Positions 11,765 to 15,951 of a DNA stretch of 29,623 nucleotides are shown here, in pieces. Made by a program: the position numbers and the translations under genes. Source of the stretch: a virus. Numbering within the stretch: the stretch's first letter is position 1; each line of letters opens with the position of its first letter. The notes below the pieces were generated by a model. It was not told the DNA's origin and searched no databases. It saw only the letters and a program-made list of their open reading frames with translations. Location of the stretch: positions 1-29,623 of the IMG/VR virus record IMGVR_UViG_3300030451_003850. The stretch is one strand, 5' to 3'.

Positions 11765-12190
11765 ATGAGTGTAGAATTATTAGCGATGTTAGGTGGGTCC
11801 TTATCAGGATTCGTTATGAAACTTATTGCAGCACAAGCACAGTCACAAGCTGCACAATTAGAAGGTATGTTAAAAAAACAAGGTATGGCTGATGATAGCG
11901 CAGACAGAGCAGCTAATCGTGGTGGTCAAGCAGGTGCTATAGTAAGACGAGTAATAGCTATCTGTACATTGTTTGCAGTAATTTTTGCACCATTCATACT
12001 TGCGTTTTTTAATGAACCAGTAACTATAGAAGCAAATAAAGCAGGTGGTTTATTTGGATTTCTTTTTGGAGATATGTTTGCAAAAGGAAATGGTTGGATT
12101 GAATTACAAGGTTATGTATTACTTCCAGAAGTAAGACAAACTATGTTAGCTCTTGTAGGATTTTATTTTGGAAGTTCACAAGTTAAATAG
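11765..12190 (+). CDS. Holin-like membrane protein, 141 aa
   Basis: A hydrophobic N-terminal helix (residues 5-23), a glutamine/alanine-rich amphipathic middle, a strong membrane helix (about 61-83, after RRV), a short hydrophobic stretch (90-100) and a final membrane helix ending GFYFGSSQVK. The RRV-helix followed by a C-terminal GFYFG segment resembles the three-transmembrane phage/GTA holin family as I remember it. A holin would open the inner membrane and let the SLT-type enzyme out. Its place in the structural operon, far from the lysozyme gene, leaves open a structural or injection role. It starts one base after the stop of the preceding gene. Confidence 0.5.
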   Translation: MSVELLAMLGGSLSGFVMKLIAAQAQSQAAQLEGMLKKQGMADDSADRAANRGGQAGAIVRRVIAICTLFAVIFAPFILAFFNEPVTIEANKAGGLFGFLFGDMFAKGNGWIELQGYVLLPEVRQTMLALVGFYFGSSQVK

Positions 12191-12575: not shown

Positions 12576-13187
12576 GTGTCAAAAAAAGAATCAGGTGAAA
12601 AAATTATTATAGAAGGTATTCTCTATAAAGATGGAGAGAAAGTATCTTTTAATAAAGATGATATATATAACTCTGATGATAAAAAGAAACTTCCTAAATT
12701 TGATGCTAAAGGTTCGGAGGCAGTTGCTGGTGAAGCTGTTAGCCAAACTGCTAGTTCAGGAATCCAGGCTGTCGTTGCTCAAGTTCAGACTCAAGCGGCT
12801 AATCTCGGAGCTTCAGGATTAATAGCAGTAGGTTCTGCAGGTGCATTCCAAGTAGAACATATGCATGATAATTATATTGAAGCTTATGAAAAAGCAGAAC
12901 CTATAGTAATAGAACTAGTAGAAACAGGAACTATATCTGTAGAAACTATAGCTGTTGTTCTTCCTCCAGATTCTAAATTTCAAGGTAAAGAATTACCTGT
13001 AGCAGAAACAGTATTAGGTAAACCTGTTGGTGAATATAAAAAACAAGTTGATGCTGAAAAAAATAAATCAGATGAACAAAAAGCATTAGAAGAACAATTT
13101 AGAAAATCAGTTAGTCCTCCTACACCAGGTGATGAAAAAGATGGAAGTATGACTTCTGTTAGTGAAGAAGATAGGAGTATGACATGA
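12576..13187 (+). CDS. Hypothetical protein, 203 aa, GTG start
   Basis: The frame begins with GTG at 12576, five bases after the previous stop, with only a weak purine-rich stretch upstream. The N terminus is polar and charged. The centre is alanine-rich with a hydrophobic segment (residues 67-92) that could be an amphipathic or membrane-associated helix. The last 60 residues are low-complexity Glu/Lys/Ser, with the motif DGSMT/DRSMT repeated at the end. It overlaps the next gene by 4 nt. Function unknown; virion association is suggested only by position. Confidence 0.6.
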   Translation: MSKKESGEKIIIEGILYKDGEKVSFNKDDIYNSDDKKKLPKFDAKGSEAVAGEAVSQTASSGIQAVVAQVQTQAANLGASGLIAVGSAGAFQVEHMHDNYIEAYEKAEPIVIELVETGTISVETIAVVLPPDSKFQGKELPVAETVLGKPVGEYKKQVDAEKNKSDEQKALEEQFRKSVSPPTPGDEKDGSMTSVSEEDRSMT

Positions 13188-13333
13188 TTTATTTAGAAGT
13201 TATTTGGGAAGTTATTAAAGCTAATGTTATAGCTATATTAATTGGTTTGGGCGGGTTGATATGTACTATAAGTATATTCATACCCAAGAATAGTAAGATC
13301 TATAAAATTATAGACTGGTTTAAGAAAAAGTAG
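13184..13333 (+). CDS. Small single-pass membrane protein, 49 aa
   Basis: The ATG overlaps the previous stop (ATGA) and AGGAG lies 7 nt upstream. The 49-residue product has one membrane helix (about residues 11-31, NVIAILIGLGGLICTISIFI) flanked by a short N terminus and a lysine-rich C-terminal tail (IIDWFKKK), suggesting an inside-facing tail. It could be a pinholin, a holin partner or an inner-membrane spanin-like peptide. No lipobox is present. Confidence 0.65.
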   Translation: MIYLEVIWEVIKANVIAILIGLGGLICTISIFIPKNSKIYKIIDWFKKK

Positions 13334-13342
13334 AGGTGAAGA

Positions 13343-13531
13343 ATGCCAGGTAAAAAGAAAGCGAAGAGTAAAGTAAATGAAGCAGGTAATTATACAAAAC
13401 CTACAATGCGTAAAAGATTATTTAATAAAATCAAAGCTGGTAGTAAAGGCGGTAAGCCTGGTCAATGGAGTGCTAGAAAAGCTCAAATGTTGGCTAGAGA
13501 ATATAAAGCTGCTGGTGGCGGGTATAAATAA
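13343..13531 (+). CDS. Small basic protein with GQWSARKAQMLA motif, 62 aa
   Basis: A lysine-rich 62-residue protein: basic tail (MPGKKKAKSK), then NEAGNYTKPTMRKRLF, a glycine-rich KAGSKGG turn, GQWSARKAQMLAREYK and a GGGYK end. I recall nearly the same pattern in small proteins of many marine phages, of unknown role. The charge and helices suit DNA or RNA binding. GAGGTGA lies just upstream of the ATG. It is one of six basic proteins in this stretch. Confidence 0.75.
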   Translation: MPGKKKAKSKVNEAGNYTKPTMRKRLFNKIKAGSKGGKPGQWSARKAQMLAREYKAAGGGYK

Positions 13532-13554
13532 AAAATAAACTATGGGAGGTACAT

Positions 13555-13656
13555 ATGTACGGTAAGAAAAAATCCAAGGGTGGCTCTATGATGAAAAAAT
13601 CTAAGGGTGGACCTATGATGAAAAAGTCAAAAGCAAAGAAAAAGAAAAAGAAATAA
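13555..13656 (+). CDS. Tiny lysine-rich repeat protein, 33 aa
   Basis: GGGAGG lies upstream of the ATG. The 33-residue product consists of two near-identical nine-residue units (SKGGSMMKK, SKGGPMMKK), a partial third, and a run of lysines at the end. About half of its residues are lysine. The strong ribosome-binding site and the placement between other basic genes support a real gene. A nucleic-acid-condensing peptide is the natural guess. Confidence 0.6.
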   Translation: MYGKKKSKGGSMMKKSKGGPMMKKSKAKKKKKK

Positions 13657-13683
13657 ATTAGTATACTAAAAAGGAGAATATTT

Positions 13684-14355
13684 ATGTCACATCTAATAAG
13701 TAATATCCCACATTTTAAATGTTGGGTTCGTAGAGAGTTCACTTGCAATCATGAAAAATATCATAATGAGTATCTTCATGCACTTGCAATCGCAGTTAAT
13801 ACAATACCTGATAGATCATTAAGTTTCCAAGTAGTATTTACAGGATGCGAATCTGATTGTGAAGATAATGATGAAGGTAATATACATGGTGGTGCTATGT
13901 GGGCAAGAATGCCTATACAAGGATTAGTAGCAGATATACCTATGGAAGATTTTCCTGAACCTATGGAAGATCATTTAGCTCAACCTTGGGATTGTGAATC
14001 AAGAGATCATTCAGTTGTTATTATGGATAGAGTTAGTTCTTCTCCCTGGTTATGTAAAATAGGAGGAGAGTTTTTCAGAGGCAAATACTTATTTACTGTA
14101 GATTATACTAACAATAGTATTGCTGATGATCCAGCACAACACAAACAATCTCATGTTTTATATATAACTGAAGATTGCCAATGGAAAGGAAATATGGTTG
14201 CATTGCCAAATAATAGGGTAAGGGCAACAAGTCCAGCACTATGGGTTACTGGAGAAGGACCACCTGATTTTAAACCATCACAATGGTCACACTCTGCAGA
14301 AGGGCATGAAAGTTATCTTGATCCTTCTATAACATTTAATAACTTATATGAGTAA
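13684..14355 (+). CDS. Conserved-looking phage protein, 223 aa, function unknown
   Basis: A soluble acidic protein of 223 residues with six or so cysteines, including CESDCED near residue 58, and many aromatic residues. The first 60 residues (HFKCWVRREFTC, HALAIAVNTIPDRSLSFQV) read as a folded alpha/beta domain, and I have an impression of related proteins in marine phages, without a known function. AAGGAG precedes the ATG. It breaks the run of basic genes and may be a structural protein. The 3' end overlaps the next gene by 8 nt. Confidence 0.65.
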   Translation: MSHLISNIPHFKCWVRREFTCNHEKYHNEYLHALAIAVNTIPDRSLSFQVVFTGCESDCEDNDEGNIHGGAMWARMPIQGLVADIPMEDFPEPMEDHLAQPWDCESRDHSVVIMDRVSSSPWLCKIGGEFFRGKYLFTVDYTNNSIADDPAQHKQSHVLYITEDCQWKGNMVALPNNRVRATSPALWVTGEGPPDFKPSQWSHSAEGHESYLDPSITFNNLYE

Positions 14356-14653
14356 AAATATGAAAAAGAAACGAGATCCAAAGGTAGGAACGGGAAAAAA
14401 ACCGAAGGGTAGCGGTAGACGTTTATATACAGATGAAAACCCTAAAGATACTGTAAGTATTAAGTTTGCAACAGAAGCTGACGCTAGAGCAACAGTAGCA
14501 AAAGTAAAAAAAATAAATAAACCCTTTGCTAGAAAGATACAAATACTTACAGTATTAGAGCAGAGAGCTAAGGTACAGGGTAAAAATAAACAAGCGGCTA
14601 TAGCTAAAGCGGGTAAAGAAGCAATAAGAAAAGCTAGAGGTAAAAAGAAATGA
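14348..14653 (+). CDS. Small basic protein, 101 aa (KRDPKVGTGKKPKGSGRRLYTDENP type)
   Basis: A highly basic 101-aa protein. Residues 9-35 carry the pattern RDPKVGTGKKPKGSGRRLY then TDENPKD, followed by an alpha/beta segment (IKFATEADARATVAKVKKI) and a basic C-terminal helix. I recall this pattern from small proteins of marine phages listed as domains of unknown function. The ATG at 14348 has no clear ribosome-binding site and overlaps the previous gene; the ATG at 14360 would also fit, as the conserved part begins there. Confidence 0.75.
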   Translation: MSKNMKKKRDPKVGTGKKPKGSGRRLYTDENPKDTVSIKFATEADARATVAKVKKINKPFARKIQILTVLEQRAKVQGKNKQAAIAKAGKEAIRKARGKKK

Positions 14654-14886
14654 CATTAAAGAAAAGCCAAAAGTCATTAAAGAAGTGGACTAAACAAAAG
14701 TGGAGAACTTCTGATGGCAAGCCTAGTAAAGGCAAAAAAAGATATTTACCTGATGCTGCTTGGAAAGCTTTAACTCCTGCAGAAAAGAAAGCTACTAATA
14801 GAGCTAAAGCTGCTGGCAATAAAAAAGGTAAACAGTTTGTTAAACAACCTAAAAGTATTGCAAAGAAAACTAAGAGGTATAGATAA
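14650..14886 (+). CDS. Small basic protein, 78 aa (SLKKWTKQKWRT type)
   Basis: The ATG overlaps the previous stop by 4 nt, with AGAGG upstream. The 78-residue product has SLKKWTKQKWRTSDGKPS, a YLPDAAWKALTPAEKKAT segment and a KQFVKQPKSIAKKTKRYR end. The LTPAE-KKAT-RAK core and the KQPK-IAKKT end match a domain of unknown function (DUF5872-like, from memory) common in marine phages. It probably binds nucleic acid, and its neighbours on both sides are of similar kind. Confidence 0.75.
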   Translation: MTLKKSQKSLKKWTKQKWRTSDGKPSKGKKRYLPDAAWKALTPAEKKATNRAKAAGNKKGKQFVKQPKSIAKKTKRYR

Positions 14887-15173
14887 TGGCTAAGAAAAAA
14901 GATCCTAAGTTAACGAGGGCTGGAGTTAGTGGTTATAATAAACCTAAGCGTACTCCTAATCATAAAACTAAATCTCATGTTGTTGTTGCAAAGGTAGGAG
15001 ATAAAACAAAGTTAATTAGATTTGGTCAACAAGGTGTAAAAGGTGCAGGAAAGAATCCAACTTCTGCAAAAGATAAAGCTCGTAAAAGAAGTTACTACGC
15101 TAGACATAATGCACAAGATGCAAAGCCAAGTAAGTTAAGTGCGAGATATTGGTCACATAAGGTAAAGTGGTAA
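14886..15173 (+). CDS. Small basic protein, 95 aa (RFGQQGVKGAG type)
   Basis: The start overlaps the previous stop by one base (TAATG), with AGAGG upstream. The product has a basic N-terminal tail, HKTKSHVVVAKVGDKTKLIRFG forming likely beta strands, then QQGVKGAGK, KARKRSYYARH and a C-terminal SARYWSHKVKW. This ordered set (RFGQ-GVKGAG, RRxSYxARH, SAxYWxxKVKW) is familiar from marine phage genomes with no known function. It is the last of the basic group. Confidence 0.8.
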   Translation: MAKKKDPKLTRAGVSGYNKPKRTPNHKTKSHVVVAKVGDKTKLIRFGQQGVKGAGKNPTSAKDKARKRSYYARHNAQDAKPSKLSARYWSHKVKW

Positions 15174-15751
15174 TGAAACTTCAAGAATATCTAGCATTAG
15201 GTGGACTTTTAATTGTATTGCTTTTAGCAAGTACAGTTAGAGGTGATTTATATGAGTATGATTTACAAGCATTATTAACAGAATCTAATCCTGTTACTAT
15301 AGATCAAGAAACTCATTATTATGATATGTTTTATATTTATTCTGATGGACCAGCTGAATTAACATTTGATAATTATAATGCAAATCTTATATCTCCATAT
15401 GATAATGGAGAGTATAGCGATCCTTATTTATATCTTTATAATCTAGAAGAAACTTCTTTTCCAAACATTAATGGGTTTACTACATCTTATGTTTTATTTG
15501 CAGAAGATGATGATGGCAATGAAGATGTTGCAGAAGGTTTATTCTTTTATCTAGACAATATAGTAATGACAAATCATATGGTAGCAATGGTTACATCGTA
15601 TGATCCTAATACTACAGGTACTGTAGATTTTACTATTATAAGTGATTCAAACTTAACTATAGATACAATCCCAGAACCCTTGACAACTAGTTTAATATTT
15701 ACAGCTGGAACTTTACTTATTATATTGCGCAGAACAGGATTTATAAAATGA
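15173..15751 (+). CDS. Exported protein with PEP-CTERM-like sorting tail
   Basis: The 192-aa product has an N-terminal signal peptide (short Lys-containing start, hydrophobic LALGGLLIVLLLAST, likely cut near VRG-D) and an acidic, aromatic extracellular domain of beta type with features like a pre-peptidase C-terminal domain (FYIYSDGPAELTF, DPYLYLYN). Its C-terminal tail is IPEPLTT, a membrane helix, then RR. That tripartite tail is the PEP-CTERM signal recognised by exosortases in some Gram-negative bacteria, which cleave and attach proteins at the surface or in exopolysaccharide. A phage source is unusual. The ATG at 15173 is chosen over a GTG six bases upstream; it overlaps the previous stop by one base. 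The gene could alter the host surface or block superinfection. Confidence 0.65.
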   Translation: MKLQEYLALGGLLIVLLLASTVRGDLYEYDLQALLTESNPVTIDQETHYYDMFYIYSDGPAELTFDNYNANLISPYDNGEYSDPYLYLYNLEETSFPNINGFTTSYVLFAEDDDGNEDVAEGLFFYLDNIVMTNHMVAMVTSYDPNTTGTVDFTIISDSNLTIDTIPEPLTTSLIFTAGTLLIILRRTGFIK

Positions 15752-15951
15752 CAAAACAAGATGGTAATTTAAGCGTTAAAGAGAAGGAATGGTTAGAGAC
15801 TGCTGCTAAATATGTTAGTAGTAAACATCTGCCTGTATTGGGGAAAATGTTGAAGATAGTTGATGATGTATCTCTAACTGTTGGTAGAGCATTATTCTTT
15901 GGAATGATTGTTGCTACCTTAATAGTGTTAGGAGTAAAAATATTTAAATGA
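15748..15951 (+). CDS. Small C-terminal-anchored membrane protein, 67 aa
   Basis: The start overlaps the previous stop by 4 nt. The first 45 residues are polar and helical (KEKEWLETAAKYVSSKHLPVL), followed by one membrane helix (about 47-64, GRALFFGMIVATLIVLGVKI) and a short FK end, a tail-anchored layout. Residues before the helix could lie on the membrane surface. Candidates are a lysis regulator, an antiholin-like protein or a superinfection-exclusion protein; none is proven. Co-translation with the PEP-CTERM-like gene hints at a shared membrane role. Confidence 0.6.
   Translation: MTKQDGNLSVKEKEWLETAAKYVSSKHLPVLGKMLKIVDDVSLTVGRALFFGMIVATLIVLGVKIFK

Follow-up and report, generated by a model that had tools for sequence, protein, structure and literature searches.

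A family of marine phages encodes its own PEP-CTERM-tagged protein, always as part of one small gene module. This suggests that late in infection the phages make use of the surface-sorting machinery of their hosts. The member analysed here lies in a stretch of viral DNA of 29,623 nucleotides (IMG/VR record IMGVR_UViG_3300030451_003850; hereafter the window). In published models, Sec exports a PEP-CTERM protein, the tail retains it, and it moves outward once an exosortase has processed it (PMC1569441, PMC12188702). The ectodomains of these proteins are poor in basic residues and Cys (PMC1569441), and the proteins are located at the surface or in exopolysaccharide (PMC12188702). The action of exosortases on their substrates is still poorly understood. 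The features of the window that bear on the phage protein are the following.

11765–12190, plus strand: 141-aa membrane protein, encoded close to the module in many relatives; among named phages, Verrucomicrobia phage P8625 has the closest match
12576–13187, plus strand: module gene 1, 203 aa, of no known family; occurs together with the PEP-CTERM gene in every uncut locus
13184–13333, plus strand: module gene 2, 49 aa, with one transmembrane (TM) helix and a basic C-terminus; overlaps module gene 1 (ATGA) and is conserved in every uncut locus
15173–15751, plus strand: PEP-CTERM protein gene, 192 aa, from the open reading frame (ORF) and the family alignment
15173–15244, plus strand: signal peptide of the Sec type; the sequence and the alignment of the family predict cleavage behind residue 24 (V-R-G↓D)
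15245–15667, plus strand: acidic ectodomain lacking Lys, Arg and Cys, a beta-sandwich by predicted fold
15503–15526, plus strand: invariant acidic motif EDDDGNED, putatively Ca-binding, from a 13-sequence alignment
15668–15748, plus strand: PEP-CTERM tail with IPEP, TM helix and RR (TIGR02595 13.3 bits, cut-off 16; homologues above cut-off)
15748–15951, plus strand: 67-aa protein with one TM helix, encoded immediately downstream; only its size and topology are holin-like

The original prediction had placed an ORF with a three-part layout at 15173–15751, and the sequence confirms both the coordinates and the layout. The ATG shares bases with the upstream stop codon (TAATG) and the TGA with the downstream ATG (ATGA); these overlaps at both ends thus place the gene inside an operon of late genes. 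The proposed N-terminal signal peptide can be read from the sequence as a hydrophobic core followed by V-R-G↓D, and its cleavage site is conserved, with A or G at −1 and D at +1 in 13 of 13 aligned homologues. The 141-aa ectodomain has 0% Lys+Arg, 0% Cys and 19% Asp+Glu and is modelled by AlphaFold as a beta-sandwich (mean pLDDT 74 for the protein, with a low-scoring tail), in line with the acidic, beta-type domain first described. The C-terminal tail of the window protein, IPEPLTTSLIFTAGTLLIILRRTGFIK, carries the predicted IPEP motif, membrane helix and RR cluster.

The assignment to the PEP-CTERM class is firmer for the family than for this copy. Against TIGR02595 (NCBIfam; cut-off 16 bits), the window protein scores 13.3 bits, with E = 0.11 over 18,950 models or about 6e-6 for one model named in advance, and neither Pfam (up to E 10) nor PHROGs nor a named-phage collection holds a match for it. 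Homologues on other IMG/VR contigs score 22.9, 20.8, 20.1, 19.6 and 18.4 bits; above the cut-off are L002 (22.9), L010 (20.1), L011 (19.6) and the proteins of L093 and L104. The same model has no match in any of 14 control genomes. The earlier claim of a phage-encoded PEP-CTERM-type protein among late genes therefore stands at the level of the family, whereas the window copy alone stays below the cut-off. A profile built from seven verrucomicrobial PEP-CTERM tails and run against 3121 phage ORFs had members of the phage family as all of its best 20 matches (15 distinct loci, E 1.8e-7 to 0.05), with the next phage ORF outside the family at E 1.1 and the best shuffled ORF at E 0.33; there is a slight circularity in that L033, one of the seven tails, had come from a search with the phage family's alignment. 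With this profile, the window copy reaches only 5.2 bits. Judged by sequence, the family does carry a PEP-CTERM tag, and the tag of the window copy is a weak one.

Homologues were found on viral contigs only, at 14 loci in the first viral-contig search and later at 21, and those aligned are 48–66% identical to the window protein; BFVD adds a single viral protein, 46% identical, with no name attached. The I-P-E of the tail, the Asp after the cleavage site and the EDDDGNED motif, which possibly binds Ca, are invariant in the 13 aligned sequences, and I-P-E is kept although the TM sequence varies. The nearest folds to the ectodomain model are a calpain C2-like domain (Z 10.3), the Tk-SP C-domain (Z 10.0), LipL32 (Z 8.6) and the PPC domain 5sv5 (Z 8.1), at 8–16% identity. 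The domain resembles PPC and C2-like beta-sandwiches and LipL32 in predicted fold but has no sequence match to any Pfam family, and a modelled beta-sandwich is a common fold that says little about function. At fourfold sites, the window and L010/L012 are 80–90% identical in the flanking genes 13684, 14348 and 15748 and 36–41% identical in the PEP-CTERM gene. The region 13684–15951 is a recombination mosaic in this comparison, with flanks exchanged recently and the PEP-CTERM gene at background divergence. Diversifying selection on the PEP-CTERM gene was dropped as a candidate; its raised divergence relative to the conserved flanks is mosaic.

The PEP-CTERM gene is the third member of a module, after a gene of about 200 aa, whose product is without an export signal, and the 49-aa one-TM gene, which was missed in the initial ORF list because it fell under the size limit. 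A search with module gene 1 returned 34 loci, one of which (L102) is cut inside the PEP-CTERM gene; all three genes are present in 33 of the 33 loci with uncut sequence. The PEP-CTERM protein profile matches 29 of these 33, and the other four have only the tail. Small genes separate module genes 2 and 3 in the window, while all three adjoin in many relatives. The AlphaFold model of module gene 1 is unusable (mean pLDDT 43).

The module occurs in at least three virion backgrounds: a P22-coat-like head protein with a portal matching a head-tail adaptor family (window), a T7-type terminase (L103), and a major tail protein with a tape measure (L002). The PEP-CTERM gene lies between two tail genes in long-tailed relatives, and an endolysin gene lies two genes on from it in L097. 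Proteins of 50 or 67 aa with one TM helix follow it in many loci; the 67-aa protein of the window has no family match, one of these small proteins has a weak PHROG holin match (E 0.013), and the group can be called holin-like on size and topology. In a heuristic export scan, which missed two known family members and is not sensitive, the PEP-CTERM protein was the only Sec-like export candidate of relative G006 and the only one in the window besides an SLT-type lysozyme, and the scan found no obvious o-spanin or lipoprotein spanin in either. A lipobox Cys near the cleavage site is absent in the window copy and most homologues; the single exception is the L013/L014 type. The probable lysozyme of the window phage (863–1288, minus strand), a weak match to the SLT transglycosylase domain, is encoded far from the module.

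Several loci depart from the common layout. IPEA replaces IPEP in L005 (9989–10564), L006 (20–604) and L106 (4659–5288), the proteins being otherwise intact, and in L098, which still matches the protein profile, a short unrelated middle part stands between the retained signal peptide and tail. The four tail-only ORFs (L097, 3457–3753; L099, 4437–4742; L103, 3342–3650; L108, 4001–4306) encode 98–102 aa with no signal peptide or ectodomain. Their first 71 codons overprint the end of module gene 1 and the 49-aa gene in another frame, which continues in frame into the PEP-CTERM tail. This frame is free of stops in 4 of the 27 loci tested and has 2–9 stops in the other 23. A domain swap for the soluble N-terminal parts was ruled out, since these parts overprint the 49-aa gene. 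Two of the three tail-only ORFs scanned exceed the TIGR02595 cut-off (16.8 and 17.1 bits). The topology of these variants is unexplained, and they count against a simple reading of the protein as an exported substrate.

The explanation we prefer, with about an even chance of being correct, is that the phage PEP-CTERM module borrows the host exosortase route late and acts on the envelope, most likely at egress. Late in infection, the phage would make a small envelope module of three proteins, of which the 49-aa protein would sit in the inner membrane. The signal peptide would carry the PEP-CTERM protein over the inner membrane via Sec, and the tail would anchor it there, its PEP motif facing the periplasm. 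An exosortase of the host would then recognise the tail and send the protein outward, in the direction of the outer surface or the exopolysaccharide layer. At the end of the cycle, the protein would act on the envelope, most likely in egress as a lysis step of the outer layer and less likely in receptor masking. We infer the processing by exosortase, the host, the timing of expression and the final action of the protein. An envelope task at egress is favoured because of the late position, the neighbours and the absence of an obvious lipoprotein spanin in the heuristic scan, with masking or exclusion possible. The scores of the window copy and the IPEA loci speak against this explanation, as do the absence of a prophage or spacer match in the genomes searched and the G+C difference from P8625, and the four relatives with a tail-only ORF speak against an exported substrate. 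A tentative alternative, which we consider unlikely, is that the constant output of the late module, shared by phages with unrelated virions, is the tail itself, using, occupying or blocking the host exosortase. In some phages the tail would be joined to an N-terminal part that arose by overprinting of the adjacent membrane-protein gene, so that selection would keep the tail and not an exported domain.

The tail could also be a mere PEP-CTERM-like membrane anchor, in which case the protein would stay in the inner membrane, on its periplasmic side, and work with its 49-aa partner, for instance in a lysis step of the spanin kind in which no exosortase takes part. We find this doubtful. The sub-threshold score of the window copy, the IPEA variants and the tail-only variants would all suit it. 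Unimolecular spanins have an N-terminal export signal and a C-terminal TM helix, and a lipobox Cys serves for the outer membrane. The phage protein recalls them in its export signal, its beta-rich part (periplasmic in spanins), its C-terminal TM helix and, in some relatives, its lysis-type neighbours. However, the missing lipobox in the window copy and most relatives leaves these members with no second spanin-type anchor, and the protein has a PEP-CTERM tail instead; moreover, several homologues pass a curated model that is silent in the control genomes, and I-P-E is invariant over a varying TM sequence.

Superinfection exclusion or receptor masking, in which the protein displayed by exosortase would keep other phages from adsorbing, or progeny from adsorbing to spent cells, seems rather improbable to us. 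The export signal, sorting tail and beta-sandwich suit display, as does the location of known PEP-CTERM proteins at the surface or in exopolysaccharide (PMC12188702). Yet the gene lies among late structural genes, beside lysis-type genes in some relatives, and its neighbours fit a role in the lysis stage or egress at least as well as surface remodelling or exclusion. No temperate phase is apparent, and the raised divergence relative to the flanks, being due to the mosaic, lends exclusion no support. Finally, the position among structural genes, between two tail genes in the long-tailed relatives, could indicate a tail or head component of the virion whose membrane features are incidental. This is very improbable: a component of a virion that assembles in the cytoplasm would hardly be expected to have a signal peptide, and the same module accompanies unrelated virion types.

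In comparison with the PEP-CTERM/EpsH system, the phage family shares the signal peptide, the ectodomain poor in Cys and basic residues, the PEP motif, the TM helix and the basic end; it differs in that each phage has one such gene and no exosortase of its own (in nine related viral records), in that the window copy falls below the cut-off and in that some members have IPEA. With the superinfection-exclusion envelope proteins of phages it shares the general notion that a phage puts one of its proteins into the host envelope. We know of no such exclusion protein with an exosortase tag. A literature search covering titles and abstracts and a few full texts, with most subscription journals outside it, returned no report of a phage-encoded PEP-CTERM protein. 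If the preferred reading is correct, a phage that brings its own exosortase substrate within a compact gene module would offer a natural way to probe the pathway. It would also link these uncultured marine phages to hosts that have an exosortase, and it would give phages an additional route to the host surface.

An EpsH-family exosortase gene was not found in the nine related viral records, a set that does not include the window record, and a host enzyme would therefore be needed. Verrucomicrobiota are a lead for the host rather than a result, the links being weak. The only named phages with a match to gene 11765 are Verrucomicrobia phage P8625 (host Puniceicoccales) and phage C75C1, and the best genome match of the gene is an Opitutae MAG, which encodes ten PEP-CTERM proteins and an EpsH homologue below the cut-off (66.7 bits). 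Of the 87 genomes in the order of this MAG, Opitutales, 63 have an EpsH homologue, which scores over the cut-off in seven. Against this lead, the gene also has matches in MAG contigs of Rhodobacteraceae, Rickettsiales, Sneathiella and one further bacterium, and weakly of Segetibacter, which are possibly mis-binned, and the G+C content is 32% in the window phage versus 51% in P8625.

A scan of 85,000 genomes with the PEP-CTERM alignment, by two peptide patterns only, found no relative, and a search of 289 Verrucomicrobiota for the ectodomain gave nothing but one match to a tail. Against 388 Verrucomicrobiota, the window DNA gave no spacer-like match and one distant prophage, and the module gene 1 alignment, in a search with no positive control, gave nothing. 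Neither the 85,000-genome nor the 388-genome search revealed a prophage with the module, which also counts against the Verrucomicrobiota lead, and no tRNAs were found. A low-GC Verrucomicrobiota chromosome, with no EpsH or PEP-CTERM match, contains a distant prophage-like portal (27%) and head protein (38%) at L064 (4802–8791).

Other genes were rejected as guides to the host. At about 40% identity or less, the terminase and head protein resemble those of phages with many different hosts, the matches of gene 14886 spread over roseophages, a SAR116 phage and cyanophages, and those of gene 13684 are weak and point to cyanophages and pelagiphages. The 223-aa protein of the latter (13684–14355) matches a PHROG named 'ferredoxin', a doubtful name, and cyanophage genes beside purM. 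A run of small Lys/Arg-rich proteins (13343–15173) is at least 90% conserved between otherwise diverged phages, and gene 14886–15173 within it has an 83% identical match in roseophage CRP-345.
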